A stretch of 64,000 nt of DNA. Source: Psychrilyobacter piezotolerans (GTDB taxonomy: Bacteria; Fusobacteriota; Fusobacteriia; Fusobacteriales; Fusobacteriaceae). The position numbers were made by a program, and so were the translations under genes. Location: NCBI RefSeq assembly GCF_003391055.1, contig NZ_QUAJ01000006.1:62001-126000 (forward strand), in the 5' to 3' direction. The notes under the pieces were generated by a model. It did not search any database. It saw nothing but the letters and a program-made list of their open reading frames with translations, and was not told where the DNA came from. Position 1 is the stretch's first letter. Each line of letters begins with the position of its first letter. This document shows positions 5,297-55,289 of this stretch, piece by piece.

Positions 5297-6043
5297 TTAT
5301 TTCTTAAATATATATTTAAGGTGTTTCCCCCCTAATCCAATAATAGAATATAGTTTCTTTGCTCCCTCTATAATCTTTAACTCTTCAAAAACTTCATTAG
5401 TTTCAAGTTTTGCATAGGATTTCATATCAAATCTGGTATGTGCATCACTTCCAAAGGTAGCTTTTAAATCGTATTTTTCCCTTAGATCTCTGGCCCTTAA
5501 ATTTCTAACTTTATCTAAACTATGATTATATGTCTCTATAGAGTCCACAACTTTTATTATTTCTTCTAAATATTTTTTATTTTTTATATAGTTTTTTTGT
5601 GCATATCCATTTAGATGGGGGAGAGAAGTGTGAGTTTTAAACTTTCCCAGGGCTTCTATATAATATTCCCATGATTTATAGGATTTTGCCATCCTATACC
5701 TATTTTTATAAGGTTCCAGATAAACTTTATAAAATTCCTCCAATTCCCTGGGATCTTCAAAATAAGCTAATATCTCCATCCCATCTTCACAGCCTATCTC
5801 TATTCCAGGGATAGAATTTATGCCTTCCACTTCAAAGGATTTAATACTCTTTCTAATCTCATTATGATCCGTTATAGATATCAAATGATTTTTCTCTTTT
5901 AAAAAACTCTTCAAAAATTTTATATTTAAAAAACCATCTGAAGCTATCGTATGTAAATGCAGGTCATAGTAGACCCCGCTATATTCTCCCTCCAATATAA
6001 TTTTTCTTTTAAAAAATTCATCTAATTTATCAAATTCAATCAT
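5297..6043 (-). CDS. PHP-domain phosphoesterase
   Basis: A 248-residue protein with a complete-looking PHP metal-binding core: YDLHLHTIASDG at about residues 26-37, the ITDHNEI motif near 77-83, PGIEIGCEDG near 97-106 and GSDAHT near the C-terminus. PHP proteins are metal-dependent phosphoesterases such as histidinol phosphatase, nucleoside-phosphate phosphatases or DNA-repair nucleases. The substrate cannot be told from the sequence. It starts at an ATG with an AGGAGGGGGC ribosome site and appears to be a single-gene unit. Confidence 0.8.
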   Translation of the reverse strand: MIEFDKLDEFFKRKIILEGEYSGVYYDLHLHTIASDGFLNIKFLKSFLKEKNHLISITDHNEIRKSIKSFEVEGINSIPGIEIGCEDGMEILAYFEDPRELEEFYKVYLEPYKNRYRMAKSYKSWEYYIEALGKFKTHTSLPHLNGYAQKNYIKNKKYLEEIIKVVDSIETYNHSLDKVRNLRARDLREKYDLKATFGSDAHTRFDMKSYAKLETNEVFEELKIIEGAKKLYSIIGLGGKHLKYIFKK

Positions 6044-6121
6044 GGATGCCCCCTCCTTTTTTCATAGTATACTCTGTAAAAATATAAAATTCAAAATCAT
6101 TTGATTTTAAAAAAAAGCCAG

Positions 6122-6172
6122 TATAACAAATAAGGGATGATAAGTTTATTTTATCATCCCTTATTTGTTATA
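6122..6172. repeat. 22-bp perfect inverted repeat containing iteron-like arms
   Basis: Arms 6122-6143 and 6151-6172 are perfectly complementary with a 7-base loop (GTTTATT). The right arm reads ATCCCTTATTTGTTATA, close to the iterons of the nearby origin. The dyad overlaps the stop codon of trmN6, so it may also act as its terminator, although no classical T-tract follows. Confidence 0.75.
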
Positions 6173-6947
6173 TTTTACCAAACATCTTCAGAACTTCTTC
6201 TGTGTAGGAACCGTCATCATTATTAATATAAAGAGGAGGCTGAATCACTAAACCTGCTTCGGCACCCTTTAACCCTTCAACTAATATGATTTTAGCCGCC
6301 TTATTCCTTGTTGTATGGCAAAACCTTATTCTTTTGGGCTCTATCTTATATTTCTTCATAAGTTCTAAGATATCTATCAATCTATCTGCTCTATGCACCA
6401 TGGTAAAGTTCCCTCTGAATTTCAGCAGATAACTCCCAGCTCTTATTATATCTTCTAAATTAATTAAAATTTCATGCCTTGCATAGGTCAGCTGATCTAA
6501 GTTGTTCAACTGATTTTTATCTCCAGTAAATTTAAAAAACGGCGGGTTGGTTACCACAGCATCAAAACTCTGGTCTGTAAATTGTGATTGTATATTTTTT
6601 ATATCACCTTTGACTACTTCTACCTGAGATTCTAATTTATTGAGGATGATATTCCTACAGGCCAGATCTACTGAGGTATCCTGTATTTCTATCCCCACTA
6701 TCTTAGCCTTAGTCCTCTTTGACAGGAGCATTGGAATTACACCATTCCCTGTCCCTAAATCCATTATATTTTTCCTTCCTTTATTTATAGTCAAAAAGTT
6801 AGATATTAATACTGAATCTATAGAAAAATTAAGATAATCATTTCTTTGAATTATTTTCATATCACTATAATTTAAGAAATCTATAATAACTTCATTCTCA
6901 TGATTTTTACTTATTTTTTTATTTTTTTCCCCATCTTTTGTTATCAT
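6168..6947 (-). CDS. trmN6: tRNA1(Val) adenine-37 N6-methyltransferase
   Basis: A 259-residue class I SAM methyltransferase of the YfiC/TrmN6 family. The SAM-binding glycine motif MDLGTGNGVIPMLLS is followed by an acidic IVGIEIQ strand, and the catalytic motif is VTNPPFFK (NPP-aromatic, typical of N6-adenine methylation). The N-terminal 30 residues are charged and may be optional; a later start is possible. It stands alone between the inverted repeat downstream and an iteron-like 18-mer upstream at 6956. In the family the target is A37 of valine tRNA. The fold is sure; the exact RNA target is taken from family knowledge. Confidence 0.8.
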   Translation of the reverse strand: MITKDGEKNKKISKNHENEVIIDFLNYSDMKIIQRNDYLNFSIDSVLISNFLTINKGRKNIMDLGTGNGVIPMLLSKRTKAKIVGIEIQDTSVDLACRNIILNKLESQVEVVKGDIKNIQSQFTDQSFDAVVTNPPFFKFTGDKNQLNNLDQLTYARHEILINLEDIIRAGSYLLKFRGNFTMVHRADRLIDILELMKKYKIEPKRIRFCHTTRNKAAKIILVEGLKGAEAGLVIQPPLYINNDDGSYTEEVLKMFGKI

Positions 6948-6955
6948 CCTTTATC

Positions 6956-6973
6956 ATCACCTATTTATTATAA
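6956..6973 (+). repeat. Iteron-like 18-mer upstream of trmN6
   Basis: ATCACCTATTTATTATAA, one base different from the origin copy ATCATCTATTTATTATAA at 11100. It lies just upstream of the trmN6 start. Confidence 0.6.
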
Positions 6974-7002
6974 TTATTGTTTTGTGCTAATTAAGCCCTG
7001 TA

Positions 7003-7038
7003 AATATTGAAGGCATGCACCATCGCAAAAGTTCAGTT
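7003..7038 (+). repeat. Fragment of the interspersed intergenic repeat
   Basis: Only the GCATGCACCATCGCAAAAGTTCAG end of the repeat is present, between trmN6 and the next terminator. Confidence 0.6.
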
Positions 7039-7046
7039 TTAATTTA

Positions 7047-7086
7047 TTAAAAAAAACAAGTCTAGGAGATCCCAGACTTTATTTCT
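7047..7086 (-). terminator. Terminator of the udk-xth-STAS unit
   Basis: On the minus strand AAGTCTGGGA / TCCTAGACTT with a two-base loop is followed by a run of eight T. The stem begins inside the stop region of the STAS-like gene. Confidence 0.8.
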
Positions 7087-7345
7087 TATTCATATCTTTA
7101 ATTAATTTAGATAACATCTCTTTTATTCCTGTATCCACATTTCTAAACCTGATGTTATTTTGGATCGATTCAAATCCTTTTTCTTCAATTACTTTTCCCA
7201 CTGTATTTTCTAAAAAATCATAAGTAGTCTTTTCAATTCCTTTAAAATCTAATGTTATTTTTACATCTCTTTTCAAGTTGTTCATAATATTTAAGTAAAG
7301 TACCTCTGCATCTTGGTCTATAAAATTTTTAACGACTATTACCAT
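7079..7345 (-). CDS. STAS-like (DUF4325-type) small protein
   Basis: An 88-residue protein with alternating strands and helices, including KITLDFKGIEKTTYDFLENTVGKVIEEKG. This resembles the STAS-like domains named DUF4325, which have a beta-strand LDF, a loop with a conserved aromatic or Phe, and then a helix. Such domains usually serve in regulation or binding rather than catalysis. It is the last gene of a tight minus-strand run (udk, xth, this gene), starts 12 bases after the xth stop with an AGGAG site, and ends in a terminator. The family assignment rests on pattern only. Confidence 0.5.
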   Translation of the reverse strand: MVIVVKNFIDQDAEVLYLNIMNNLKRDVKITLDFKGIEKTTYDFLENTVGKVIEEKGFESIQNNIRFRNVDTGIKEMLSKLIKDMNKK

Positions 7346-7357
7346 CTCACATCACTC

Positions 7358-8122
7358 CTATTCTACTGATACCCTTAATACAACAGGGCAATGATCAGAT
7401 CCCATTACATCATTTAATATGACGGCATCCTCTATATTATTTACAAATGATTCATTAACAATATGATAATCTATTCTCCAGCCAATATTTTTTTCCCTGC
7501 TTTTAAATCTATAAGACCACCACGAATATTTAGTTTCTTCAGGCTGAAGATATCTAAAAGTATCTATATAACCACATTCTAAAAATTTGGTCATCCAATC
7601 CCTTTCTTCAGGCAGGTATCCTGGATTTTTTTCATTTTTTTTAGGATTAGTCAGGTCAATCTCCCTATGTGCTACATTTAAATCACCACATAAAATTATA
7701 TTTTTTCCCAGATCAACCAGTTCATTGCACCTTTTCATTATAGCAGTGTTAAATCTTAATTTATAATCCAATCTTTTCCCTTCAGACTGACTGTTGGGAA
7801 AATAACAGTTGATCAGATTAAAATCTTTATATTCTAATTCCATATATCTACCTTCAAAATCAAATTCTTTAATATCCATATTCCTGATATTTAAAGGTTC
7901 TATTTTTGTATATACCGCAACTCCTGAATATCCTTTTTTTTCAGCTGAAAAAAAATAAGATTTATACCCATCTATCTGGGTTAGTTTTTCCTCTAATTGC
8001 TCTATTTGTGCCTTTGTTTCCTGAACACACAGAATATCAGGATCTTCTTTTAAGACCCACTCCACAAAACCTTTTTTTTGAATTGCTCTTATCCCGTTAA
8101 CATTCCAGGAATAGATATTCAT
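7358..8122 (-). CDS. xth: Exodeoxyribonuclease III
   Basis: A 254-residue AP endonuclease/3'-5' exonuclease of base-excision repair. All ExoIII/APE1 landmarks are visible: SWNVNGIRA at the start, the metal ligand Glu in CVQETKAQ, YSGVAVYTK, NCYFPNS, the catalytic CGDLNVAH with Asp and Asn, and the C-terminal GSDHCPVVL with the Asp-His pair. Length is typical. Its ATG overlaps the udk stop codon (TAATG), so the two are translationally coupled. Confidence 0.95.
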   Translation of the reverse strand: MNIYSWNVNGIRAIQKKGFVEWVLKEDPDILCVQETKAQIEQLEEKLTQIDGYKSYFFSAEKKGYSGVAVYTKIEPLNIRNMDIKEFDFEGRYMELEYKDFNLINCYFPNSQSEGKRLDYKLRFNTAIMKRCNELVDLGKNIILCGDLNVAHREIDLTNPKKNEKNPGYLPEERDWMTKFLECGYIDTFRYLQPEETKYSWWSYRFKSREKNIGWRIDYHIVNESFVNNIEDAVILNDVMGSDHCPVVLRVSVE

Positions 8123-8754
8123 TAACTTAGGCTCCCTTTTTGAAGATACCTCTTTAATTTAGCTATAATCATGTTTATAGCTATTTTATTCTCTCCACCT
8201 CTAGGTATTATCACATCGGCATATCTCTTGGATGGTTCACAAAACTCTAAATACATTGGTTTTACAGTTTCTAAATATTGTTTTTTTACCGAATCAAAGG
8301 TTCTCCCTCTTTCATTGATATCTCTTTCGATTCTTCTTAAAAGCATCTCATCTGCATCGGTATCAACAAATATTTTTACATCCAGCATATCTCTTATCTC
8401 TGGAATAGACAGGATTAAAATCCCCTCTATAACAATTATTCTAGATGGATTTATTTTTACCATCTTTTCTTTTCTTGAATGAGTTTTAAAGTCATATATA
8501 GGTCTCTCTATAGCTTTTCCATCTTTTAAATCCATCAAATGTTTCTTTATAAGGTCAAATTCTATAGATTCAGGGTGATCAAAATTGACTTTTGCCCTCT
8601 CCTCTATGGATAATTCCTTCAATTCTTTATAATATGCATCTTGTTCAACTAGTACTGCGTCTTCTGATTTAAATGCCTTTATCAGGTTATGAGCAACTGT
8701 TGTTTTTCCAGATCCACTTCCCCCTGCTACTCCTACAAATATACAGTTATTCAT
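8122..8754 (-). CDS. udk: Uridine kinase
   Basis: A 210-residue kinase of pyrimidine salvage that phosphorylates uridine and cytidine to UMP and CMP. The Walker A motif GVAGGSGSGKTT is at residues 8-19. The NFDHPESIEFDL motif, IYDFKTHSR, the IVIEGILIL strand and the ERDINERGRTFDSV segment are standard for Udk. It leads the udk-xth-STAS run and has a good ribosome site (AGGAGGGTACC). Confidence 0.93.
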   Translation of the reverse strand: MNNCIFVGVAGGSGSGKTTVAHNLIKAFKSEDAVLVEQDAYYKELKELSIEERAKVNFDHPESIEFDLIKKHLMDLKDGKAIERPIYDFKTHSRKEKMVKINPSRIIVIEGILILSIPEIRDMLDVKIFVDTDADEMLLRRIERDINERGRTFDSVKKQYLETVKPMYLEFCEPSKRYADVIIPRGGENKIAINMIIAKLKRYLQKGSLS

Positions 8755-8826
8755 GGTACCCTCCTTTAAATATAGCTTTGATAATTATACCCTATCTCTT
8801 ATAAAATATCAATGATGGTTATTTTA

Positions 8827-8844
8827 ATCATTTATAAATTATAA
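8827..8844 (+). repeat. Iteron-like 18-mer downstream of the initiator gene
   Basis: ATCATTTATAAATTATAA lies in the gap between the udk ribosome site and the rep stop codon. It matches the 12949 copy (ATCACTTATAAATTATAA) except at one base. Confidence 0.6.
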
Positions 8845-10569
8845 TCCTTTTTCTTTCTTTAATATCTTCAATATATAAATTTTTTCTATTGATTTGAAAA
8901 TTTTCTGGTGAATCGGCATAAATTTTTCTATATTTGAATCTACTTCAAACATTTTCTTTGCCTTTACTAATAATTCTTCTTTTTCCTTTTCTTCCATCTT
9001 TTCATATAGTTCCAACAAAACTTTATAGATTGGATTATTCAAGTCAACCTCTTCATCCACCTTTGGTTTAGGAGGTTCCACTATCTCAGCCTCTATTATC
9101 TCCAGATGCGATTGTTTCTCCTTGACTATCTTAGGTCTTTTGATTTTGTCTTCCCTCTTAGATGTTTTTATATCCTCCAAAAGATCTTTATCACCTTTTA
9201 CGTTTTTTAAGATCCCATTGATATAAGCCACCAGAGTTTTAGATATATCAGTTTTTAAGTTTGAATATAGAATATCTAAAATATGTATTGCTACCTTTTC
9301 TCCCTCTTCATTATATAACTTTATAATCTTATTCTCTGCTCTTTTATTCCAATTTTTAGAAACAAATATATTCCTTTTTGCCTTGGTTATAGCTTTTAGA
9401 GCAGCTTCCGACATCTCGTTGATATCTTTAATAATTGTTTTATATACCTCATTGGGTACCTCTAATCTGATCTGTTTTAGTGCTGAATTTTTCAGGGCTT
9501 TTTTCTTTTTCCCCTTCAAAATATAATCGGAAATATGACATTCTCCATCTTTATCCACGTTGTACTTAAATCTATAGGCATAACTTTTTTCTGCCTTCAA
9601 AGGGTAGACTTCATAGGTTAAAAGATAACCTTTTTCCACTAAAGCATCAAAAGATTTATTTATTCTTTTCATCACCTGTTTCATCTTACTTACTTCATAT
9701 TCCTTGATTTCCCCAGTCTTTAACACCTTTCTTATCCTGCTCTTTAGAGTTAATGGAATTATAGTTGCTAAAGTTTCTATCCTAAATTCACCTTCAGTAT
9801 TGGCAAATCTTTTCATACTTAAAAACTGATATATTTTTTCTGCAGCTCTATCAGATTTTCTCAAGACATTCAGTTGATGTCTATCAAAAATAGAGTAATG
9901 TTTTATCCTCAATTCCTCTATTATTCTATGATCTAATCTGACCTTATAGTAAACTTTCATCTTATTTGTTTTTATATTTTTTTCCTTAAATTTTTCATAT
10001 TTCACCAAATTAAGAGGTTCTTTATAAACCTCTCTGATTATATTCCCTGCAGCTTTTTTATTTCTGATCAATATTTTATATGTAGTTGCCTGTAAATTAT
10101 ATAGAGTTTCTTCCATCTTTCTATAATATTTCATAGAAAACTTTAATCCCAGGTAATCTATAACTTCCTCGATATTAAAGGTGATATACTCCTTTGTAGG
10201 ATCATCAGCCAAAATTTCTTGAAATTTATATAAAATAAAATAAAACACATTCTTTTCAAAATCTGAAGGCTGCTGATTTCTTATCCCTTCAAAATTATCC
10301 GTACTCAAAGAAGATCCGAATTTAATCCCTGCATTGGCTATTTCATATACCAAGTTTACATTTCTCTGCCTTTTAGATGTAAAAAATGGTAAAATTATGA
10401 ATAAAAAAGGTTGATTAATCGTATCTCTTATATCCATGTCTTCCAAATATAAAGACACTGTTTTAGTCGGGATAGTTTTAGGTTTATAACTTTTGATATC
10501 TATACTAAGGTCATTTTTGTTCCCTATCTCTAATATTTCTAATAGAGATCCTTGTTTTTTTTCAGACAT
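8839..10569 (-). CDS. Plasmid-type replication initiator (winged-helix Rep/RPA-like)
   Basis: A 576-residue protein with the layout of iteron-binding initiators. Residues about 90-340 contain two winged-helix-like regions: FEKNVFYFILYKFQEI..., then KMEETLYNLQATTYKI, DRAAEKIYQFLSMKRF and KMKQVMKRINKSFDALVEKGYLLTYEV. A long basic and acidic C-terminal half follows that I cannot assign, making it longer than common Rep_3 proteins. It is followed upstream (to 11.35 kb) by iteron repeats in AT-rich DNA, the expected arrangement for an initiator and its origin. The likely role is to bind these iterons and open the origin. The exact family (Rep_3 or RPA) is uncertain. Confidence 0.8.
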   Translation of the reverse strand: MSEKKQGSLLEILEIGNKNDLSIDIKSYKPKTIPTKTVSLYLEDMDIRDTINQPFLFIILPFFTSKRQRNVNLVYEIANAGIKFGSSLSTDNFEGIRNQQPSDFEKNVFYFILYKFQEILADDPTKEYITFNIEEVIDYLGLKFSMKYYRKMEETLYNLQATTYKILIRNKKAAGNIIREVYKEPLNLVKYEKFKEKNIKTNKMKVYYKVRLDHRIIEELRIKHYSIFDRHQLNVLRKSDRAAEKIYQFLSMKRFANTEGEFRIETLATIIPLTLKSRIRKVLKTGEIKEYEVSKMKQVMKRINKSFDALVEKGYLLTYEVYPLKAEKSYAYRFKYNVDKDGECHISDYILKGKKKKALKNSALKQIRLEVPNEVYKTIIKDINEMSEAALKAITKAKRNIFVSKNWNKRAENKIIKLYNEEGEKVAIHILDILYSNLKTDISKTLVAYINGILKNVKGDKDLLEDIKTSKREDKIKRPKIVKEKQSHLEIIEAEIVEPPKPKVDEEVDLNNPIYKVLLELYEKMEEKEKEELLVKAKKMFEVDSNIEKFMPIHQKIFKSIEKIYILKILKKEKGL

Positions 10570-11777
10570 TCCTTCCCCACCTTATCATCATTTTCAATTT
10601 ATAATTTTATCATCCTTTACAGGTTATAACATTTTTTCAACGTTTTTTCAAGTTTTATTTTTATTATCACGTATTATTTATAATCTGGTTTTTCTTAAAA
10701 AACCAGCTCAACCGATCTTTTACTGGCCTTTATTATAATCCTTTATTTACTATAATTTATTAACCATAGTATCTTTAGGAGTTTATTATTCATCCCTTAT
10801 TATTTATAATTAATATCTAAACTTACTATCAGCTATTTCCTTGATAATTCAAGGGTGCTTTATCATCACTGTATTATCAACTTAATTTAAACCCAATAAA
10901 TAAAAGGTTAATAATATAATCCTTTATTTATTATATTTTATTTTATTATTCTCTTTAGTAGAATTAGGCTTATATTTATAATCCTTCATTTATTATATTT
11001 CATTATCTTTTCATTTTATTTTATAAAGTTTCTTTATACCCTTTATTTTATTGATTCCGTTTATAATCACTAATAAAATATATTTATAATTATTTTAACA
11101 TCATCTATTTATTATAATTTTATTTTTTAACTATCCTTTATTTTTAAAGGGCTTTAATCAGCCTAAAATAATTAAAGTCAGGAAAATATAGTTTAGATAT
11201 ACAATCCTTTATTTATTATAAATCTATTTTATTTTCATTTTTATTTAGCCGAATAAAAATAAGCTTTCTTTATAATCCTTTATTACACATAAAAAAATAT
11301 CCGTTAATTAATAGGCTTAGTTATACAATCCTCTATTTATTATAAAAATAAAAAATGATTTCCTTTTTCCAGCCTGTATTTGCTGCTCTAGAGATAATAT
11401 ATCTTTTTTTATAAAAAGCTCTACATAATACATAAAACAATAATACATAAAACAACTATAAATTATTAAAGATAGTTCTGTCTGTTATTTAAGATTATTT
11501 TTTAAATTCAAAATCAAACAAGATTTATCTACACTATATAAAACTAATCACCAATAAACAGCAATTAAAAAATTATTAACTAGCAACTGATAAGGTTTAC
11601 TCACTAATTATACAAATTAATATCCAGAAAATAAAATACCAATACTATACATAGATAAAATGTATAAGATTTTAAATGTATTTAATTTTAACATTAGTAT
11701 ATCAATATAAATAAATTTACAGATTAGATAACTAAAAAAAAAGGATAAGACAACACTCGTCTTACCCTTAAAAATAA
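10570..11777. other. Iteron-type replication origin
   Basis: About 1.2 kb without genes. Near-identical 18-mers lie in direct orientation: ATCCTTTATTTACTATAA at 10738, ATCCCTTATTATTTATAA at 10792, ATCCTTTATTTATTATA at 10919, ATCCTTCATTTATTATA at 10981, ATCATCTATTTATTATAA at 11100, ATCCTTTATTTATTATAA at 11204 and ATCCTCTATTTATTATAA at 11328. Weaker copies are near 10611 and 11275. The last full copies share a longer block beginning TATACAATCC. Beyond 11.38 kb the DNA is almost pure A/T, with a 15-bp tandem repeat TAATACATAAAACAA near 11427-11456, a candidate unwinding region. No DnaA box TTATCCACA was found. Confidence 0.75.
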
Positions 11778-12929
11778 TTAATTTTTTTCTAATCTAGGTG
11801 GTCTTTGACCATAGTATTGGTAATATCTACACTTTAAATTACCATTATATAATTTTCTATTTTTATCGGCTTTTCTATCAAATAATTTTTCAAAGCCATC
11901 ATGGGATGTAATTATATAATAAGACCATTTTTTACATCTCATCCTGCAAATATCTCCCAATGTTCTGTATAACTTTTCTACCTGGTCTAAATCAGATAAA
12001 CGTTCTCCATATGGTGGATTGGTAATAAGAGATCCGTATTCAGCCATAGATTCAAATTCTAATAGATGTTTTTGTTCAAATAATATATCATTTTCCACAC
12101 CAGCTAATTTAGCATTTTCTATAGCAGTTTCAATAGTTTCACCATTTAGATCCGATCCATAGATCCTAACTTCTTTTTCATAATCTTCATGGGTAAAAGC
12201 TTCATCTCTGGCATCTAACCAAAGTTGTTCGTCGATAATATGCCAATCTTCAGAAGCAAACCTCCTATTTACGCCAGGAGCGATATTTCTAGCAATCATG
12301 GCAGCTTCTATCAAGATAGTTCCTGTACCACACATAGGATCCACAAGAGGACGTTCTCCGCCATTCCATTTAGATAATTTAACAAGTGCTGCAGCTAAAG
12401 TTTCTTTCATAGGAGCTTCGTTTAAATGAGCTCTATATCCCCTTTTGTGTAAAGGTACACCAGAAGTATCGATCATCACTACAAAATTATCTTTGTTTCC
12501 AATAATTTTTATCCTATAAAGACCTCCGTCTTCACTGAAATAATCATGTTTATACTGAATTTTTAATTTTTCAACAATAGCTTTTTTAGCCATCCTCTGC
12601 ATATCAGATTTTGAAAAAAGTTTACATTTAACAGAACTAACCCATGAAACCGGAAATTCTGCATTGATTGGTAAGATACTAATCCAGTCCATTTTTTTTA
12701 CTTTCTCAAAATACTCATCCCAGGTAAAAGCCTTAAATTCTCCCATCTTTAGGTAAACTCTATCGGCAGTTCTAAGCCAGATATTGGCCTTGATTATATC
12801 TTCTATCCCACCATCAAATTCAACCCTTCCATTGTGGGTAACGACATTTTTAAATCCTAAATCTTTTATCTCTTGAGCTAATATACTTTCTACTCCCATT
12901 GTGGCAGTAGCTATCAGTGTATATGTCAT
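11778..12929 (-). CDS. rlmL: THUMP-domain 23S rRNA guanine methyltransferase (RlmL-like)
   Basis: A 383-residue protein with an N-terminal THUMP RNA-binding domain (about 1-160) and a C-terminal N2-guanine SAM methyltransferase. PLVDPMCGTGTILIEAAMIARNIAPG is the SAM site and SLITNPPYGERLSD is the catalytic NPPY motif. The conserved HKRGYRAHLNEAPMKETLAAALV segment joins the domains. It corresponds to the RlmL half of E. coli RlmKL and to stand-alone homologues in Firmicutes. It is a single gene whose upstream region carries an iteron-like 18-mer. Confidence 0.88.
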   Translation of the reverse strand: MTYTLIATATMGVESILAQEIKDLGFKNVVTHNGRVEFDGGIEDIIKANIWLRTADRVYLKMGEFKAFTWDEYFEKVKKMDWISILPINAEFPVSWVSSVKCKLFSKSDMQRMAKKAIVEKLKIQYKHDYFSEDGGLYRIKIIGNKDNFVVMIDTSGVPLHKRGYRAHLNEAPMKETLAAALVKLSKWNGGERPLVDPMCGTGTILIEAAMIARNIAPGVNRRFASEDWHIIDEQLWLDARDEAFTHEDYEKEVRIYGSDLNGETIETAIENAKLAGVENDILFEQKHLLEFESMAEYGSLITNPPYGERLSDLDQVEKLYRTLGDICRMRCKKWSYYIITSHDGFEKLFDRKADKNRKLYNGNLKCRYYQYYGQRPPRLEKN

Positions 12930-12948
12930 AATATCTTCCTCCTAATTC

Positions 12949-12966
12949 ATCACTTATAAATTATAA
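12949..12966 (+). repeat. Iteron-like 18-mer upstream of rlmL
   Basis: ATCACTTATAAATTATAA, nearly identical to the copy at 8827. Confidence 0.6.
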
Positions 12967-13050
12967 TACTGTATATTTTAACATTATAATTAGGTTCATG
13001 CAAAGTATATTTTTTATTGCGAAAGATTAAATTGATAATCCAGGATAAAA

Positions 13051-13070
13051 TATAATTAATAAGGGATTAT
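13051..13070 (-). repeat. Iteron-like motif, inverted
   Basis: On the minus strand ATCCCTTATTAATTATA, matching the origin iterons at most positions. Confidence 0.5.
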
Positions 13071-13096
13071 AAGTTTAACAACTAATCACTACTGAT

Positions 13097-13180
13097 GTTT
13101 CGCGTTTATAAAACCCGCAATAATATTAAGATGTAATTCTTATGGTTTTTGATGCGTGCACCATGATGAAAGTTCAGTTA
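13097..13180 (+). repeat. Interspersed intergenic repeat, copy B (internally deleted)
   Basis: It keeps both ends of copy A (GTTTCGCG... and GTGCACCATGATGAAAGTTCAG) but lacks about 90 bases holding both internal dyads. This shows the element varies by loss of its core. Confidence 0.7.
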
Positions 13181-13238
13181 TTATATAAATTATAATAATA
13201 CAGTGATGATATTTTCATAAAAATCTTTAATTCTTATC

Positions 13239-13256
13239 ATCACTTAATAAATATAA
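13239..13256 (+). repeat. Iteron-like 18-mer
   Basis: ATCACTTAATAAATATAA in the gap between the BMP-protein terminator and the repeat copy B. Confidence 0.5.
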
Positions 13257-13266
13257 TTTTTGAAAA

Positions 13267-13306
13267 TAAAAAAACAACTTAATTAATATAATTAAGTTGT
13301 TTTTTA
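13267..13306 (-). terminator. Terminator of the BMP-protein gene
   Basis: ACAACTTAAT / ATTAAGTTGT hairpin with a 7-base loop, with A/T runs on both flanks so that a T-run follows on the minus strand. Confidence 0.75.
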
Positions 13307-13336
13307 AGGTTAAATCAACATCATTGTTTTGGAATC

Positions 13337-14302
13337 TTATTCTGAAACTATGATTTTTCCAGAGATAATATCTTTAGTCATCTTATCTAATTTAGCTAAC
13401 TTATTAGAACCAATAAGTTTCTTAGTATGGTTAAAATCAGTCAGGGAAACTCCATTTTCAGCCAGCCCGGATTGTCTGTATCCTTCTTTAAATCTACCTT
13501 CTCTAACTTCTTTAGTCAGGTTATAAACGGCATTATCAATTCTTACTCTAACAGAAGTTAAAATAGTACCTGGAACTTCTCCATCCTGGTCTATATCAGA
13601 CCCGATAGCGTAGATTTTCTCCTCTTTAGCCGCTTCGAAAACTCCCTGTCCGGTACCTTCAGCAACTTGTAAAATAACATCAGTTCCTCTGGATATCATA
13701 AGATTAGAGATATTTTTTCCTGTAACAGGATCGTTAAAAGGATTGCTGCTGGTTGTAGGCATATAAGATGTAATAACCATAACATCTGAATTTACATATT
13801 TTGCACCTTGGGTAAATCCATGTTTAAATCTGTTGAAAGATCTGTTGTCCATTCCTAATAGTACACCGATTTTATTGCTGTCACTCATCATAGTAGCCAG
13901 TGCACCTGCTAAAAAACTCATCTCTTGTTCAGCAAAATCAATGGTAACAGTATTAGGTACGGTAATTGTACCGCCTACAATGGCATATTTTTGATCTGGA
14001 AATTCAGTGGCCACTTTTTTTATAGATTCAGCTACGACACTTCCCATTCCAATGACAAGATCATAGTTGCCTTCCCTTGAAAAATCTCTTAAAAAAACTA
14101 AATCTTCTGTTATATTAGAAGGTTCTACATATTTAAAAGTAATAAGTCCCTCACCTTCCGCTTTTTTCAATCCATCATAAGCCATTTGATTAAACCCTGT
14201 ACCTAATCCTCCACTAGAAAGGACTACTCCTACATTGATTTTATCCTTACTATAAGCTGCTAAACTTAATAATAAGAAAATTAACATAAATAATTTTTTC
14301 AT
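13337..14302 (-). CDS. BMP-family (PnrA-like) substrate-binding protein
   Basis: A 321-residue secreted binding protein of the BMP/PnrA family, whose members bind nucleosides for ABC import. A signal peptide is clear: KK, then FMLIFLLLSLAAYS. The mature part begins INVGVVLSSGGLGTGFNQMAYDGLKKAE, and family blocks such as FPDQKYAIVGG, EQEMSFLAGALA, KIGVLLGMD and YAIGSDIDQDG follow. The usual lipobox cysteine is missing, so it may be a soluble periplasmic protein, fitting a diderm cell. No permease or ATPase gene is next to it. A promoter (TTGAAC, 18 bases, TATCAT) is likely just upstream at about 14340-14375. Confidence 0.85.
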   Translation of the reverse strand: MKKLFMLIFLLLSLAAYSKDKINVGVVLSSGGLGTGFNQMAYDGLKKAEGEGLITFKYVEPSNITEDLVFLRDFSREGNYDLVIGMGSVVAESIKKVATEFPDQKYAIVGGTITVPNTVTIDFAEQEMSFLAGALATMMSDSNKIGVLLGMDNRSFNRFKHGFTQGAKYVNSDVMVITSYMPTTSSNPFNDPVTGKNISNLMISRGTDVILQVAEGTGQGVFEAAKEEKIYAIGSDIDQDGEVPGTILTSVRVRIDNAVYNLTKEVREGRFKEGYRQSGLAENGVSLTDFNHTKKLIGSNKLAKLDKMTKDIISGKIIVSE

Positions 14303-14389
14303 TTTCTTCCCCCGTTTTTATTTTATAATATTTTCATAACTCTAATTCTATGATACCCATATTATAGAACTTAGTTCAATTTAAAAAAT

Positions 14390-14422
14390 GGAAAGTGTAC
14401 CCATACACTTTCCATTTTTTTT
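14390..14422. terminator. Bidirectional-looking terminator between kinase and BMP genes
   Basis: Perfect stem GGAAAGTGTA / TACACTTTCC with a 4-base loop, with T-runs on both strands. Confidence 0.8.
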
Positions 14423-14450
14423 ATAGTCTAAAAATTAAACTTGTCTGGAT

Positions 14451-14465
14451 GCAACGTCACGTTGC
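14451..14465. promoter_or_regulatory. 15-bp palindrome GCAACGTCACGTTGC
   Basis: Seven-base arms around one central base, just after the kinase stop. A related site follows parB (30496-30506) and another lies in the ilv promoter (24723-24732). Candidate protein-binding site. Confidence 0.45.
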
Positions 14466-14468
14466 TAT

Positions 14469-16142
14469 TTATTTTATCATAGTAAAGGTAAATAAAGTCC
14501 CCTTTTTATTTGATTTGACATCTATATCCCCGCCGCATAGATGAACTAATTCATAAACTATAGATAAGCCCAAACCTGTGCCGGCTACATTGCTGGTCCT
14601 TGCCTTATCTACCCTATAAAATCTGTCGAATATCTTATAGGTATCGGATTTATTCATCCCGATTCCGTTATCCTTTACAGAAATTTTATATTTATCAAAT
14701 TTTTCTTCCATGGTAATTTTTATTCTAGGAGTATTAACATTGTAAATAATAGCATTCTCAATAAGATTTTTTAAAATCATGGTAGTTTTTTCAAAATCTA
14801 TCCTAATGTAGTCGGATTGCAGATCCAGCTTGTAGGATAGATCAACTTTTTTTAATTCAATTTGATTTTCAAGGGATCTATTGATCTCATCTATGAGAAG
14901 GTTCACATGAATAGGAGCTAAATTTACGACTTTACTGCTCTCTATCTTGGATAAGTTTAAAAAATCCATTAAAATATTATCCAGTTTTAGTGCATTTCTC
15001 TCTATGGTATTAATAAACTTATCTCTTTTATGGGAATCCTCCTCCTCTCGGAGTGCAACTAAATATCCCGTAATATTAGTTAGAGGAGTTTTTAATTCAT
15101 GTCCTACATTGGTAATAAAATTCTTTTGTATTTCCAATGTTTCCCTATCTCTAGTGATATCTTTTATGGTAAAAAGGTACTCTTCCCGGGATTTCATATA
15201 TTTTCCCCTGAGCAGTATATATTTTTGAATATCCTCTAAATAGACTTCAGAGATATTATTTTCTTTTTTTGAGATCAACCGGTCTATAAATTTAATAATT
15301 TCGGGATATTTGATGTCTTTTTTATAATTTTTAATATCTTCCTTTATATAGATAAAATTAATGGCATCATTTTTTAATTTAATTTTTTTTTCGGAATCGA
15401 CTAAGATGATTCCCATATCTACAGATGAGATAATATTATTTAATTTAACTTTTTCTAACTTTAATTTTTCTATATTTTTAAGGTTGTTATCCTGCCATTC
15501 CTTAATAACTTCCCAAAATTTAAACAGCCACCTATCATCTTTTGAGACCACTTCTTTGATCTCATTGCCGTCTTCTAACATCTTTTTTATTTGGTCGATC
15601 CTTTCAAAGAGATAGCGCTTTAAATAAAATCTATAACTTATAAGTGCAAAGAGATTTAAAAGTGAGAATAAGATAATATGTATATAAGTGCTGAGTTTTA
15701 CGTGTCTAAGAGCATTATTAGATATAACAGAAACACGAATAATTTGAGATGGATTTAATTTAAGAGCGAAATATATCATCTCTTTTTTAGTAGTTTCACT
15801 CTTTCGTGTGGATATGCCTTCGTTATTTTTTAGTGCACTTAAAATTTCAGGCCGATTATGGTGATTTTCCATAGAGTCGATAGACTTCTCTTCCATACTA
15901 TCAAATAAAACTTCTCCATCTAAACCTATGATAGTAAATCTTTTTTGTGTTTTTTTAAAGAGGTCACCATAATTTCCAGATGGATTTTGTAAAATAATAT
16001 TTTTGATTAAATAAGCATCATTTCTAAGGGAATTTTCCACATTTTTAATGCTGAGTTCCGATAATTTATCGGTATTCCATCTTACATAAAGGACCTCTAT
16101 TAGGAGGATAAAAATTATTATTATAAAATCTTTTCTTCTAAT
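14469..16142 (-). CDS. PhoR-type sensor histidine kinase, probable AUU start
   Basis: Membrane sensor kinase paired with the response regulator just upstream. The HisKA/HATPase core is complete: FITNVGHELKTPLTNI (H-box), NLIENAIIYN (N-box), KDNGIGM (G1), IFDRFYRVD (F-box) and GTGLGLSIV (G2). A second membrane helix near IHIILFSLLNLFALISYRFYL follows an extracytoplasmic loop. The first ordinary start codon in frame is a GTG at 16040, which would omit helix 1. In frame upstream lies RRKDFIIIIFILLIEVLYVRW, a good first helix, and the only plausible start before it is ATT at 16140-16142, about nine bases after a GGGGG ribosome-site-like run inside the regulator gene. I therefore annotate from the ATT. 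A sequence error is the alternative. Confidence 0.8.
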   Translation of the reverse strand: MRRKDFIIIIFILLIEVLYVRWNTDKLSELSIKNVENSLRNDAYLIKNIILQNPSGNYGDLFKKTQKRFTIIGLDGEVLFDSMEEKSIDSMENHHNRPEILSALKNNEGISTRKSETTKKEMIYFALKLNPSQIIRVSVISNNALRHVKLSTYIHIILFSLLNLFALISYRFYLKRYLFERIDQIKKMLEDGNEIKEVVSKDDRWLFKFWEVIKEWQDNNLKNIEKLKLEKVKLNNIISSVDMGIILVDSEKKIKLKNDAINFIYIKEDIKNYKKDIKYPEIIKFIDRLISKKENNISEVYLEDIQKYILLRGKYMKSREEYLFTIKDITRDRETLEIQKNFITNVGHELKTPLTNITGYLVALREEEDSHKRDKFINTIERNALKLDNILMDFLNLSKIESSKVVNLAPIHVNLLIDEINRSLENQIELKKVDLSYKLDLQSDYIRIDFEKTTMILKNLIENAIIYNVNTPRIKITMEEKFDKYKISVKDNGIGMNKSDTYKIFDRFYRVDKARTSNVAGTGLGLSIVYELVHLCGGDIDVKSNKKGTLFTFTMIK

Positions 16143-16801
16143 TTGTACCCAACCCCCTTGATCGTTTTAATATCTTTTGAGATACTCTTCACCTTATCTC
16201 TGATTTTTGAAATATACATATCTACAGTACGATCACCTGTATAATAGTTACTCTGCCATACCTTGTCTAAGATCTTATCCCGGGTTAATACTAATCCCTT
16301 ATTTTTTATAAGAAGAAGTAAAAGGTCATATTCTTTTTTAGACATAGGAATTTCATTTTGATCTTCTAAAATCAAGTGTTTATCGGTGTCTATAGTTATA
16401 TTTTTAAACATATATTTCTTGGTGCTGATTTTAGTTTCACGGTTTAAAAGCTTTTTTACCCGTAAAACCAACTCTCTGGGGTCAAATGGTTTTTTCATAT
16501 AATCATCTGCTCCTACCTCGAGACCTGATAATACATCCTCTATATCAGTTTTGGCTGTAAGCATGATTATCTTGGGGTTACCATATTTTTCTTCTGATTT
16601 TTTTATCATTTGAGCCAGACTCTTTCCGTCTAAATTAGGAAGCATAAGATCCAATATAATAATATGAGGATGATAAGTTTTAGCTAACTTTAATCCTGTC
16701 ATCCCGTCACCGGCTTCAAGGACTTCATATCCCTCTTTCTCCATAAAAAAACTAATTAATTCTCTGATATCTATGTCATCTTCTACAATTAATACTTTCA
16801 A
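16121..16801 (-). CDS. OmpR/PhoB-family response regulator
   Basis: A 226-residue regulator. The receiver domain has the acidic pair VEDDIDI near 7-9, the phosphorylated Asp in IIILDLMLPNLDG near residue 52, T/S in IIMLTAK and Lys in DDYMKKPF. The C-terminal winged helix has MSKKEYDLLLLLIKNKG, DRTVDMYISKIRDKV and GVGYKLE. It is encoded directly upstream of and overlapping the kinase, so the two form one unit. Targets are unknown; the resemblance to PhoB is by architecture only. An iteron-like 18-mer (16816-16833) lies 15 bases upstream of the start codon. Confidence 0.92.
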   Translation of the reverse strand: MKVLIVEDDIDIRELISFFMEKEGYEVLEAGDGMTGLKLAKTYHPHIIILDLMLPNLDGKSLAQMIKKSEEKYGNPKIIMLTAKTDIEDVLSGLEVGADDYMKKPFDPRELVLRVKKLLNRETKISTKKYMFKNITIDTDKHLILEDQNEIPMSKKEYDLLLLLIKNKGLVLTRDKILDKVWQSNYYTGDRTVDMYISKIRDKVKSISKDIKTIKGVGYKLEEKIL

Positions 16802-16815
16802 TTAATAACCACCTC

Positions 16816-16833
16816 ATCCCTTATTATTTATAA
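16816..16833 (+). repeat. Iteron-like 18-mer upstream of the response regulator
   Basis: ATCCCTTATTATTTATAA is identical to the origin copy at 10792-10809. It lies immediately before the response-regulator start. Confidence 0.7.
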
Positions 16834-16944
16834 AATAATATTTTATAACTTAGAATACAATGTTTCTTACTCTATTTCAAACTTTTTCTTATTTGTTTAC
16901 ATTAGATTGACATATAGGACAGATAAAAAGGGGTAGATAATAAT

Positions 16945-16996
16945 TTATATTTTATAAGTGATGATAACTTTTTATATAATCACTTATAAGGCATAA
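16945..16996. repeat. Inverted pair of iteron-like motifs
   Basis: ATCACTTATAAAATATAA on the minus strand (16962-16945) and ATCACTTATAAGGCATAA on the plus strand (16979-16996) form a dyad in the gap upstream of the two-component genes. Confidence 0.5.
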
Positions 16997-17010
16997 TTTT
17001 TTACAACATA

Positions 17011-17044
17011 AAAAAAGGAAAAGCAGAGAAATTTTTCTCTGCTT
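17011..17044 (-). terminator. Terminator of the hydroxyacid dehydrogenase gene
   Basis: AAGCAGAGAAA / TTTCTCTGCTT hairpin followed on the minus strand by a T-rich run. Confidence 0.75.
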
Positions 17045-17085
17045 CTATAAATTCATATATTTTCATAAGTCCATTTTTTTAAATT

Positions 17086-18108
17086 TTAATTCACAGAATT
17101 ACCTGCATCTCCTGTAGAAGAAAATTCCAGTAAATTTTTCAGGGAAACTTCTACCATATCCGATACAGCCTGATGTGTAAAGAAGGCCTGATGGGGAGTT
17201 ATCTGAACATTGGGCATATTCTTTAAAATCACCAAACTATCGTTATCAATCTGCCTCCTGGAACAATCTCTAAATATAATTCCATCCTCTCCCTCCAGAA
17301 CATCTAGAGCCGCTCCTCCGACTTTTCCTGATTTTAATCCTGCCACAAGATCTTTAGTATGAATAAGTTCTCCCCTGGCAGTATTAATTATCAATACTCC
17401 GTCTTTTGCAGAAGATAAAAACTTTGAATCGATCATATGCCTGTTTTCCCCGGTCATTGGAATATGCAGGGTTATTATATCCGACCGTTTTTTTAATTCC
17501 TCTAAACTAACATATTCTATATTCTCTAAATGAGAAGGAAAAGGGTCGTAGGCAATAACCTTACATCCAAAACCACTCAGACATTTAATCACTGTTTTAC
17601 CGATCTTACCTGTTCCGATCACACCTATAATTTGATTTTGCAATTCTCTTCCCTTTAGACCCTTCAGAGAAAAATCGTTGATTCCTACCTTTTTTATCGC
17701 AAGAGGAAGATATCTGAGCAAGTTCATCATAGACATCACTGTGAACTCAGCAACGGAATAGGGAGAATAGGAAGAATTACTTACTTTAATTTTAAGTTTT
17801 GTAGCTATATCTAAATCTACGTTATCGTAACCTATACTTCTGCTGGCAATAAATTTAATTCCATTTTTTTTAAGAACTTCCAGATTTTCTTTTCCTAAAT
17901 CACAGCTTCCTACAAAAGAAAGGTATTCGTACCCTAAAGATTCATCTAGATTTGAGCTGGACACTCCTTTTTTTACGATTTTTAACTCTATGTTATATAA
18001 ATCAGCAAATCTATTAAAAGCTTCTAATTCGTCCTCCCTCACACTGTAAGCTACTACTTTTATTTTATCTAAAGTATTTAATTCTTTAAAATTTAATATT
18101 TTTTCCAA
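17086..18108 (-). CDS. D-2-hydroxyacid dehydrogenase (D-lactate dehydrogenase-like)
   Basis: A 340-residue NAD-dependent dehydrogenase of the D-isomer family, probably reducing pyruvate to D-lactate. Visible are the catalytic Arg region FIASRSIGYDNVDLD, the Rossmann motif GVIGTGKIGKTVI, the acidic YDPFPS strand, LHIPMTGENRHMI, NTARGELI, and the catalytic His in ITPHQAFFT. The active-site Glu should lie in the GAALDVLEGEDG segment. Length and the YDPFPS and TPHQAF forms point to the LdhA/VanH branch. It lies directly downstream of ilvC but a terminator intervenes, so it is probably a separate unit. Confidence 0.85.
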   Translation of the reverse strand: MEKILNFKELNTLDKIKVVAYSVREDELEAFNRFADLYNIELKIVKKGVSSSNLDESLGYEYLSFVGSCDLGKENLEVLKKNGIKFIASRSIGYDNVDLDIATKLKIKVSNSSYSPYSVAEFTVMSMMNLLRYLPLAIKKVGINDFSLKGLKGRELQNQIIGVIGTGKIGKTVIKCLSGFGCKVIAYDPFPSHLENIEYVSLEELKKRSDIITLHIPMTGENRHMIDSKFLSSAKDGVLIINTARGELIHTKDLVAGLKSGKVGGAALDVLEGEDGIIFRDCSRRQIDNDSLVILKNMPNVQITPHQAFFTHQAVSDMVEVSLKNLLEFSSTGDAGNSVN

Positions 18109-30508: not shown

Positions 30509-31378
30509 TTATTTTATAAATGTATAGTCTTCTTTTTCCATCATCTCTTTAATTTTTTCAAAATAATCCTTAACTTCTGAAGGAACTTTTTTCTTTACAG
30601 AAAAATTAAATCCTTTGGCAGTGTATTTTATAGATATTTTTTTGGGTTTTTCCGATAAATTTAGGTTTTTTAATAGATCCCTCAATTCATCCCTGTTAAA
30701 ATCCTTATATTCTTTTACAATATCAGATGTAGTCTTTTCAGATCTCAGCTTATTGACAACTTTATTTAATAGTTCAGCCTTATCTGCTCCTAAAATTTCT
30801 ATGATTTCCCTGATTTCTATGGGATAGTTGATAGCATTTTTTATCCTGTAATATGTTTTTTTACTGATATTATATCCGGTGATTATATCTTCAATAGATT
30901 TATCTTTTCTGGCAGCTTCCTTGTTAAATTTATAGGATTGCTCCAGTAAAGTTAAATTTTTTCTCTTTAAATTTTCATCGATAGAGATAGTGTCTAAAAG
31001 GCTGTATGGAGTATTTTTATCAAATATTACTACCCTGTCCTTGGCTTTAACTTCTACTTCTTCTGTGTAGAGTTCCTTTATGGCACTGGATCTTCGAAGA
31101 CCACTGATGATTCTAAATGTTCCCTCTTCCTTCTCCTGAAGATATATTATATTTAAGAGTCCTATAGCACTAATACTTTCTTTGAGTTCATTTAATTCCG
31201 AATCATCCATGGAAAGTCTGTTTATAAAGGTTAGGTCTTCAAAATCAACCTGGTCCAGGAGTTCAGGACGCATATGAACCATCCTTCCATATTGTTTTAC
31301 TATTTTTTCCTTTGGAAGGTCTATTGTTTCTTTTTTCGGCCCCCTGTTAAGTAAAGGATTATTTCCTAATCTACTCAT
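30509..31378 (-). CDS. parB: ParB-family partition protein
   Basis: A 289-residue DNA-binding protein. The ParB/Srx-like domain has box-like DSELNELKESISAIGLLNIIYLQ and FRIISGLRRSSAIKEL; the second replaces the usual GERRxRA with GLRRSSA, so CTP handling may differ. A helix-turn-helix follows (KSIEDIITGYNISKKTYYRIKNAI), then a basic C-terminus. It is translationally coupled to parA (TAATG overlap). It should bind a centromere site on this replicon. The divergence from chromosomal Spo0J proteins fits a plasmid or chromid type. Confidence 0.88.
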   Translation of the reverse strand: MSRLGNNPLLNRGPKKETIDLPKEKIVKQYGRMVHMRPELLDQVDFEDLTFINRLSMDDSELNELKESISAIGLLNIIYLQEKEEGTFRIISGLRRSSAIKELYTEEVEVKAKDRVVIFDKNTPYSLLDTISIDENLKRKNLTLLEQSYKFNKEAARKDKSIEDIITGYNISKKTYYRIKNAINYPIEIREIIEILGADKAELLNKVVNKLRSEKTTSDIVKEYKDFNRDELRDLLKNLNLSEKPKKISIKYTAKGFNFSVKKKVPSEVKDYFEKIKEMMEKEDYTFIK

Positions 31379-32151
31379 TAACTCTCCTCCCTTTCAATTA
31401 TTTCAACACAAAGACCCTTATAATCTTTGGCTCCATTACTTCTGGGAGCATAATCAAAGATACTGAGTCCATGGGAAGATGCTTCTGCTACTTTTATATT
31501 TCTTCTGATTAAAGTTTTAAACATATTCTCTCCGAAGAATTCCTTTAACTGCCCGATAACTTCTACATGAAGTTTAGATCTGGAATCTACCATGGTAGCA
31601 AAGATCCCGCCGATCCTAAGGTCATCGTTCATCCTATGAGTAACGATATCTATAGTATCCATGAGTTCTACAATTCCTTCTAAGGCATAAAATTCTGTCT
31701 GAACCGGGATATATACCTCGTGGGAAGCCATAAGGGCGTTGAATGTAAGGGTATCTAAACTAGGAGGACAGTCAATGAGGACATAGTCATATCCATATAC
31801 ATCTTTTAAAATCTCCTTTAGCAGACTCTCCTTCCCTGGAACTCCCCCTAATTCTAAATTAACCTTGGACATCTTTATATTAGTTGGAAGGATATCGGCA
31901 AATGAAGTTTCTACAACTATATCACCAAAATTTAATTTACTTGTTCCAAAAGACTTGGCCTTTAGGAGGTCATATACTGTATAGTCTAGATTTCTTTTGT
32001 CCAGACCAAAACCAGAGGTTAGATTTCCCTGGGGGTCAAAGTCGATAGCTAAAACTTTTTTTCCCAGACCATGCAAACCTGCGGCTATGTTTTGAGTAGA
32101 CGTAGTCTTAGCTACCCCACCTTTTTGATTTAAAATTGAAATTATCTTCAT
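31378..32151 (-). CDS. parA: ParA/Soj-family partition ATPase
   Basis: A 257-residue Walker-type ATPase. The deviant Walker A is NQKGGVAKTTS (residues 8-18, Ala in place of the usual Gly), DFDPQGNLTSGFG gives the switch I region, and DYVLIDCPPSLDTLTFNAL is Walker B. VPVQTEFYALEGIVELMDTI is typical. There is no N-terminal HTH, so it is the short type Ib/Soj form. It is first in parA-parB-hypothetical and, with ParB, should move replicon copies over the nucleoid. Confidence 0.93.
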   Translation of the reverse strand: MKIISILNQKGGVAKTTSTQNIAAGLHGLGKKVLAIDFDPQGNLTSGFGLDKRNLDYTVYDLLKAKSFGTSKLNFGDIVVETSFADILPTNIKMSKVNLELGGVPGKESLLKEILKDVYGYDYVLIDCPPSLDTLTFNALMASHEVYIPVQTEFYALEGIVELMDTIDIVTHRMNDDLRIGGIFATMVDSRSKLHVEVIGQLKEFFGENMFKTLIRRNIKVAEASSHGLSIFDYAPRSNGAKDYKGLCVEIIEREES

Positions 32152-54775: not shown

Positions 54776-55227
54776 CAGTCATCACCTCGTAATGCCTCCA
54801 ATACAGGGTCATTATCTTCTTGCATTGACTGGTATGCTGCATTAGCTAATTTACTCCTACTCTGTGGACTCAGGCATAATTCATTGCATAATCTAAAGAA
54901 CTGCCTCATATATGTATCTTGAACTATTCTAGCCTCTTTATTTAAAATATTTTCTTCTAATAGTTCTTCTGCTGATTGGATTCTATCCAGAGCAACTGCA
55001 CAACTAGATAAGATATAGATATCTAAATTACAGAGTATGTCACTCTCTTTTAATTCAGTTACTATAGTCTTAAATATTTTCTTGGCATTTTTATTTAAAT
55101 ATTTTAGAGGTTTTATTTTATCATTTCTACCCTTTAATTTTTCCTCTGCATCTTTCCTTGCCCTGTATTCTTCTGTACTTATATTGGAACTTAATAAGCC
55201 AACACTCTTGGCTGGTCTTCCTCCCAT
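54775..55227 (-). CDS. Terminase small subunit (P27-like)
   Basis: A 150-residue protein starting MGGRPAKSVGLLSSNISTEEYRARKDAEEKLKGRNDK, the usual start of P27-family small terminases, with a helical body and the C-terminal RSKLANAAYQSMQEDNDPVLEALRGDD. It recognises the packaging site, which should lie just upstream. Confidence 0.87.
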   Translation of the reverse strand: MGGRPAKSVGLLSSNISTEEYRARKDAEEKLKGRNDKIKPLKYLNKNAKKIFKTIVTELKESDILCNLDIYILSSCAVALDRIQSAEELLEENILNKEARIVQDTYMRQFFRLCNELCLSPQSRSKLANAAYQSMQEDNDPVLEALRGDD

Positions 55228-55289
55228 TTTATCACCTCATTTCTGATTTAGCTTTTTAAAACATTTCATTTTCGGGGATTTTTTAAATT

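Follow-up and report, generated by a model that had tools for sequence, protein, structure and literature searches.

Copies of the origin iterons, inferred to bind the Rep initiator, flank the replication origin of a second chromosome in Psychrilyobacter

The window, which is the whole stretch of DNA analysed here, comprises 64,000 nucleotides of the marine bacterium Psychrilyobacter piezotolerans (assembly GCF_003391055.1, contig NZ_QUAJ01000006.1, positions 62,001 to 126,000) and includes the replication origin of a second chromosome, or chromid. At this locus, a gene encoding a predicted replicon-specific Rep initiator lies beside an array of direct 18-mer repeats, and further copies of the 18-mer are dispersed among the neighboring genes. 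A motif was built from the 11 copies in the array and used to score each site, which yielded the following features:

8839..10569 (-), gene for Rep, the predicted replicon-specific initiator, 576 aa
10612..11345 (+), origin array of 11 direct copies of ATCCTTTATTTATTATAA-like 18-mers, all on the + strand (10612, 10666, 10738, 10792, 10919, 10981, 11066, 11100, 11204, 11275, 11328); arrays also occur in the related genomes G006 and G007, in Ilyobacter and in Propionigenium
6121..6138 (-), dispersed site, left half of a divergent dyad with a 17-bp gap; 17.4 bits; conserved in several relatives, with a spacer that drifts
6156..6173 (+), dispersed site, right half of that dyad, overlapping the 3' end of the TrmN-like methyltransferase gene; 19.9 bits; conserved
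6956..6973 (+), dispersed site 9 bp upstream of the methyltransferase start codon; 19.4 bits; kept in genomes G003-G007
8799..8816 (-), weak dispersed site, partner of 8827; 13.2 bits; same in G006 and G007
8827..8844 (+), dispersed site overlapping the rep stop codon, upstream of udk; 18.0 bits; copies at the rep 3' end also in genome G001, Ilyobacter and Propionigenium
12949..12966 (+), dispersed site about 20 bp upstream of the RlmL-like gene; 17.8 bits; kept in G006 and G007, with a perfect copy upstream of the Ilyobacter orthologue at 54.6 kb
13050..13067 (-), dispersed site; 20.7 bits; identical in G006 and G007
13239..13256 (+), weaker dispersed site; 14.0 bits here and 16.3 in G006 and G007
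16294..16311 (+), dispersed site inside the response-regulator coding sequence; 21.0 bits; same position in G005, G006 and G007
16816..16833 (+), dispersed site about 15 bp upstream of the response-regulator start, identical to 10792; 20.5 bits; identical in G005, G006 and G007
16945..16962 (-), dispersed site, left half of a divergent dyad with a 16-bp gap; 16.1 bits; conserved
16979..16996 (+), dispersed site, right half of that dyad (ATCACTTATAAGGCATAA); weak here, 13.8 bits in G006 and G007
30509..32151 (-), ParB-like (30509-31378) and ParA (31378-32151) genes of the replicon, with no site of this motif at 11 bits or more nearby

The observation made in a sequence-only reading, that iteron-like 18-mers are scattered between genes on both sides of the origin, is confirmed. 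Each of the copies it listed exists, although the inverted copy it placed at 13051 is one base off, and the copy at 16816 is letter for letter the same as that at 10792, as it had stated. However, the sites at 6121, 8799 and 16294 had been missed, and the origin array contains 11 copies scoring at least 12 bits rather than the seven that had been counted. The claim that no copies occur past about 17 kb is correct for this window, in which the next best match, at 59882, is at chance level.

To determine whether the clustering could result from chance matches of an AT-rich motif, we compared the number of sites with that obtained from 100 column-permuted motifs. The window's contig holds 9 sites of at least 15 bits in the 14 kb flanking the array, within about 7 kb on both sides of it, in contrast to a null mean of 0.12 and a maximum of 1. 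Genomes G006 and G007 hold 11 such sites each, largely in the same places, which refutes chance as an explanation. Beyond 7 kb, the replicon has one more conserved cluster, a dyad and a single site, which lies about 24 kb from the origin in G006 and G007 and in this draft assembly is found on another contig, C28, at 18478/18514/19078. The rest of the 1.15-Mb replicon and the main-chromosome sample are at background, and two-mismatch matches elsewhere in the genome are near control level. Equal density across the genome, which had been named beforehand as the outcome that would refute the observation, was clearly not found: beyond 30 kb, the 1,146-kb replicon of G007 has 9 sites where about 9 are expected by chance. 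A general promoter or terminator motif would occur genome-wide, which this motif does not, and a search of positions 5500-17500 against Rfam returned no match to an RNA element.

We next asked whether the sites have been kept by evolution. Motif columns were identical in 128/132 cases for G006 and 120/132 for G007 (91-97%), whereas neighboring intergenic columns were identical in 383/614 and 384/614 cases, respectively (62%). In addition, both halves of the dyads are kept while their spacers vary. The sites are close to the array and their spread falls with distance, which could suggest passive relics of local duplication or gene conversion from the array. However, the flanks of different copies look unrelated, which also argues against a shared mobile element or duplication around them, and together with the conservation of motif columns this makes the passive-relic explanation very unlikely.

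To determine whether the sites follow the origin or the adjacent genes, we examined other genera. Ilyobacter has its own halo of 7 sites of at least 16 bits within 20 kb of the origin (null 0.1), beside mostly different genes, and Propionigenium has a halo as well. The Ilyobacter orthologues of two site-bearing genes, those encoding the TrmN-like methyltransferase and the response regulator, lie far from the origin (at C2:264134 and C2:438420) and have no copy within 2 mismatches, which suggests that the sites follow the origin rather than the genes. One counter-example is rlmL, which keeps its perfect copy at 54.6 kb. These results bear on the possibility that Rep or another regulator binds the sites as operators to control the genes beside them (methyltransferases, uridine kinase, a two-component system) and thereby ties their expression to replication. 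Sites lie about 9, 15 and 20 bp upstream of three start codons, which would suit operators, and DnaA and Rep proteins can act as transcription factors. However, other genes carry sites in Ilyobacter, one site is inside a coding sequence, others overlap stop codons, and the main-chromosome halo described below has different genes. We therefore consider a gene-specific operator role disfavored and unlikely.

We also considered whether the sites serve segregation or chromosome organization, with the dyads bound by a partition protein, or by Rep as an anchor, to position the origin. Dyads flank the origin, as parS sites do, and in Ilyobacter two sites lie just downstream of parAB. In contrast, the motif is that of the origin iterons, no copy lies near parAB in this window, and no site within 2 mismatches of the canonical parS was found in the whole chromid. 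Furthermore, the main chromosome has a halo although a search with PF02195 found no ParB on it in these Psychrilyobacter and Ilyobacter genomes. This explanation is also unlikely.

The identity of Rep was examined through sequence and predicted structure. An orthologue with 63.5% identity opens the 961-kb replicon NC_014633 of I. polytropus. Within Pfam, only RPA was matched, at 20.1 bits against a cut-off of 27, so that neither Rep_3 nor RPA is assigned above the curated cut-off. No NCBIfam match was found, and a PDB sequence search with the Rep profile gave nothing meaningful. In a structural comparison of the predicted model (VIA-align), the top 46 of 50 rows are iteron initiators of the RctB, RepE or Pi type, aligned over about residues 69-340 of the model. 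The nearest fold is that of RctB domains 2-3 (Z 8.3), followed by RepE54 and Pi, which suggests a tandem winged-helix (WH1-WH2) initiator. Because the model is of low confidence (mean pLDDT 58.5), this is moderate evidence, although the direct iterons next to the rep gene are also as expected for an iteron-type initiator.

No DnaA was found in the genome, and all 44 Fusobacteriaceae examined lack DnaA and carry a Rep paralogue, which lies beside rpmH in the 14 loci checked. A search of a limited library for literature on dnaA in Fusobacterium found nothing, which does not prove that its absence is unreported. The main chromosome repeats the design with its own Rep paralogue and a different motif, for which we found 14 copies (up to 1 mismatch) in the 20 kb around its origin, 1 in 380 kb sampled elsewhere and 0 in the whole chromid.

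Taken together, we favor, with moderate confidence, the interpretation that the scattered 18-mers are extra binding sites for this replicon's own Rep. In this view, firing of the origin would copy the sites almost at once and roughly double the Rep-binding capacity, so that free Rep falls below the firing threshold, and paired sites may also let Rep bridge ("handcuff") them to origin iterons. Either way, they would limit initiation and prevent an immediate second round. The analysis itself establishes the sites, their origin-centered clustering, their conservation against drifting flanks, their specificity to the replicon and their recurrence in other genera. That Rep binds them is inferred from their identity to the origin repeats and from the predicted Rep fold, and titration or handcuffing as the effect is inferred from analogy with extra RctB sites and iteron plasmids and from theory, according to which near-origin placement is the arrangement in which titration alone prevents re-initiation (PMC9640692). 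The dispersed sites are few, about 15 outside compared with 11 in the array, so their titrating capacity would matter only if Rep is scarce. They also favor C at position 5 (13/15 against 3/11 in the array, P = 0.004), which suggests that they could have a different affinity or role.

The sequence-only reading had proposed initiator titration, copy-number control like that of Vibrio chromosome 2, or a regulator's operators, and this interpretation is partly supported in that the first two fit best: the sites are near-identical to the origin iterons, confined to the origin neighborhood of the replicon that encodes this Rep, under selection, and present around the same origin in two other genera. 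The Vibrio chromosome-2 replicon (PMC3937223, PMC6090056) is likewise a secondary chromosome of about 1 Mb, with a winged-helix initiator next to an iteron array and a few extra iterons near the origin on the same replicon only. In V. cholerae, extra RctB sites near ori2 titrate RctB and lower copy number (PMC3937223). The comparison holds for the logic but not for the parts. Here the sites start right at the array's edge on both sides, none of the 26 sites compared contains the GATC that marks Vibrio iterons and their Dam-dependent binding, no second site class resembling the 39-mer was recognized, and the organism has no detected DnaA, whereas the Vibrio replicon has DnaA and a DnaA box in its origin. 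No crtS-like site was seen, in that no conserved strong copy of the motif was observed on the main chromosome, although a crtS-type site need not resemble an iteron. Iteron plasmids (F/RepE, R6K/Pi, P1), which control copy number by extra iterons and handcuffing, share the Rep fold, direct iterons, extra iterons and inverted pairs. Plasmid extra iterons sit in inc loci beside the origin, whereas here they are scattered among neighboring housekeeping genes of a 1-Mb replicon. The DnaA titration sites of DnaA-type chromosomes (datA of E. coli, DnaA-box clusters of B. subtilis) are likewise initiator boxes in gene gaps near the origin, but here the initiator is a Rep-type protein rather than the AAA+ ATPase DnaA, and two replicons have two separate motifs.

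A broader and more tentative hypothesis, which we regard as possible but somewhat less likely than not, is that Fusobacteriaceae dropped DnaA and run both chromosomes with plasmid-type Rep initiators whose activity is set chiefly by counting. Each replicon would then have a private motif and a halo of near-origin sites that titrates its Rep, which would be a natural case of the near-origin, titration-only control that theory says would work and that E. coli does not use. The arrangement is significant because it offers a natural, two-replicon system for the long-debated initiator-titration model, in which about a dozen 18-mers would be open to direct test, and because it points to how a whole bacterial family may start chromosome replication without DnaA.

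The long hairpin around 6121-6173 looks terminator-like, but other dyads have non-palindromic spacers. Among distal single sites, those in G007 (559111, 865123, 977116 and others) are at background number, and G007 225652, which lies inside a gene, equals 167785 in G006, which was scanned to 460 kb, with both scoring 18.2 bits.

The region under study comprises bases 62001-126000 of contig 6 of a 3.36-Mb draft genome (G000), whose genus-mates among the searched genomes include public Psychrilyobacter assemblies. The replicon matches the third contig of the relative G007 (1,146,430 bp) and the first contig of the relative G006 (1,044,673 bp), and a paper on a Psychrilyobacter isolate describes such a replicon as a putative chromid with parA/parB and core genes (PMC10580919). 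The Rep gene is orthologous to the first gene of the 961-kb replicon of Ilyobacter polytropus. The features relevant to our analysis are as follows:

8839-10569, minus strand: the Rep gene
10612-11328: the 11 origin copies of the 18-mer motif
6121/6156: divergent dyad of dispersed sites
8799: dispersed site
16294: dispersed site
16945/16979: divergent dyad of dispersed sites
18478/18514 on contig 28: divergent dyad of dispersed sites
30509-32151: locus of the ParB-like (PF02195) protein

To determine whether the motif is enriched around the origin, we built a weight matrix from the 11 origin copies and scanned this contig, the whole G007 chromid contig, 460 kb of the G006 chromid and 400 kb of the G007 main chromosome. 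Outside the array, sites scoring at least 15 bits within 7 kb number 9 in this genome, 11 in G007 and 11 in G006, whereas column-permuted matrices yield 0.08-0.12 on average and never more than 1. At 7-30 kb there are three sites in G007 and three in G006, all of which belong to one cluster about 24 kb out. In the present draft this cluster lies on contig 28 because synteny breaks there. Synteny with G007 breaks both at about 51-58 kb of contig 6 and at about 15-16 kb of contig 28 (chromid 107 kb joined to about 1.03-1.04 Mb), which suggests a large chromid rearrangement in this genome or a misassembly. Farther out, site numbers equal the null (9 against about 9.3 in G007). The sequence-only reading had reported iteron-like 18-mers scattered between genes on both sides of the origin, and this observation is real and more general than first described: every copy it listed exists, although the sites at 6121, 8799 and 16294 were missed.

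We next asked whether the sites are conserved. In alignments of the neighbouring gene gaps from several relatives, the 18-mers stand out as kept blocks within drifting sequence. Over four gaps, G006 is identical at 128 of 132 motif columns and at 383 of 614 other columns, and G007 is identical at 120 of 132 and 384 of 614, respectively. Columns are not independent, so P values for this comparison are descriptive, and the count leaves out the gap at 16802-17085, which could not be anchored but is represented in the alignments. The dyads at 6121/6156, 16945/16979 and contig 28 18478/18514 are divergent with gaps of 16-18 bp, and both halves are kept while the spacer changes. The dispersed sites prefer C at position 5 (13/15), where origin copies mostly have T (C in 3/11; P = 0.004).

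Because such sites could follow either the origin or the genes beside them, we examined I. polytropus (G031), in which the chromid origin has 16 copies of the same consensus and a surrounding halo: 7 sites of at least 16 bits within 20 kb (null 0.1) and sites at 54.6 and 58.3 kb. Apart from the xth-udk block, most neighbouring genes differ from those found here. The Ilyobacter orthologues of the response regulator (C2:264134, C1:710641) and of the methyltransferase (C2:438420) have no copy within 2 mismatches nearby. In contrast, the RlmL-like orthologue at 54.8 kb keeps a perfect copy about 200 bp upstream. Propionigenium maris has copies spread 1.7 kb beyond rep. Taken together, these results indicate that most sites go with the origin. 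In the I. polytropus chromid (54585-58428), putative Rep sites bracket the rlmL-parA-parB block, and the same 58.3-kb pair lies about 59 kb on the other side of the origin in another searched genome (G020), as after an origin-centred inversion. The only ParB-like (PF02195) protein found in the Psychrilyobacter and I. polytropus genomes searched is on the chromid, and none was found on the main chromosome.

To assess the nature of the initiator, we searched the Rep protein (P0001) against profile libraries, which returned only a sub-threshold Pfam match (RPA) and no NCBIfam match. An AlphaFold2 model of modest confidence (mean pLDDT 58.5) matches RctB domains 2-3 best (Foldseek E 0.017; VIA-align Z 8.3), followed by RepE54 and Pi entries in the first 46 rows. 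We therefore treat this protein as an iteron-type initiator.

We also investigated whether the main chromosome shows a comparable arrangement. The G007 main chromosome carries a paralogue, Rep1, which is 34-36% identical and lies next to rpmH, the usual place of dnaA. Its upstream region has direct repeats of TTATTWTTGNNNRTATACAT about 104 bp apart. With at most one mismatch, this motif occurs 14 times in the 20 kb around that origin (C2:140001-160000), once in 380 kb sampled elsewhere on the main chromosome and never in the 1.15-Mb chromid. Whole-genome counts are 23-24 in three Psychrilyobacter genomes (G000, G006 and G007), with 0-1 for the reversed control. In G006 and G007 all copies are on the main chromosome and none is on the chromid, with satellite clusters 48-78 kb out and single sites to about 220 kb. 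Ilyobacter and two further Fusobacteriaceae (G024 and G027) show the same focus. Conversely, the chromid motif does not reach 15 bits in the 20 kb around the main origin.

We also examined the distribution of DnaA. Of 74 genomes of the phylum that are at least 95% complete, none of the 44 Fusobacteriaceae has the DnaA DNA-binding domain PF08299, whereas all 30 others do. PF00308 gives only short IstB-like hits in Fusobacteriaceae (best 47 bits), as compared with 154-252 bits elsewhere. Rep1, a plasmid-type Rep paralogue, shows the mirror image, as it is found in 44 of 44 Fusobacteriaceae at E below 1e-130 (for example, at G007 C2:149067-150935, G000 C24:38326-40194 and I. polytropus C1:42-1847), and in 14 loci with enough flank rpmH is beside it. 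Outside the family we found it only in Haliovirga (G038), which also has DnaA; there, a 42%-identical relative of the Rep proteins starts a 297-kb plasmid (C2), which hints at a plasmid origin of the family's initiators. We found no paper on this absence of DnaA in the literature searched, although it may have been noted elsewhere.

Without DnaA, the ATP-switch controls of E. coli (RIDA, datA, DARS) have no substrate, and a Rep initiator is then most simply limited by its amount. In the mechanism that we consider most likely, near-origin extra sites would double right after firing and take up free Rep. In V. cholerae, extra RctB sites near ori2 titrate RctB and lower copy number (PMC3937223), and in theory near-origin placement is the arrangement in which titration alone prevents re-initiation (PMC9640692). 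The dyads may add handcuffing. Our analysis establishes the sites themselves, their clustering, the selection on them, their replicon specificity and their recurrence, whereas binding by Rep, titration and any effect on initiation are inferred. The interpretation offered in the sequence-only reading (initiator titration, copy-number control as for Vibrio chromosome 2, or a regulator's operators) is partly supported. Initiator titration and handcuffing sites are already known, and the setting here is an unusual, DnaA-free one.

Finally, an intergenic repeat consisting of GCRTGCACCAT followed by AAAGTTCAGTT occurs four times on this contig and was not found in the G006 and G007 stretches searched, and it is possibly the end of a small mobile element:

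7013: intergenic repeat
13154: intergenic repeat
21577, reverse: intergenic repeat
32205, reverse: intergenic repeat
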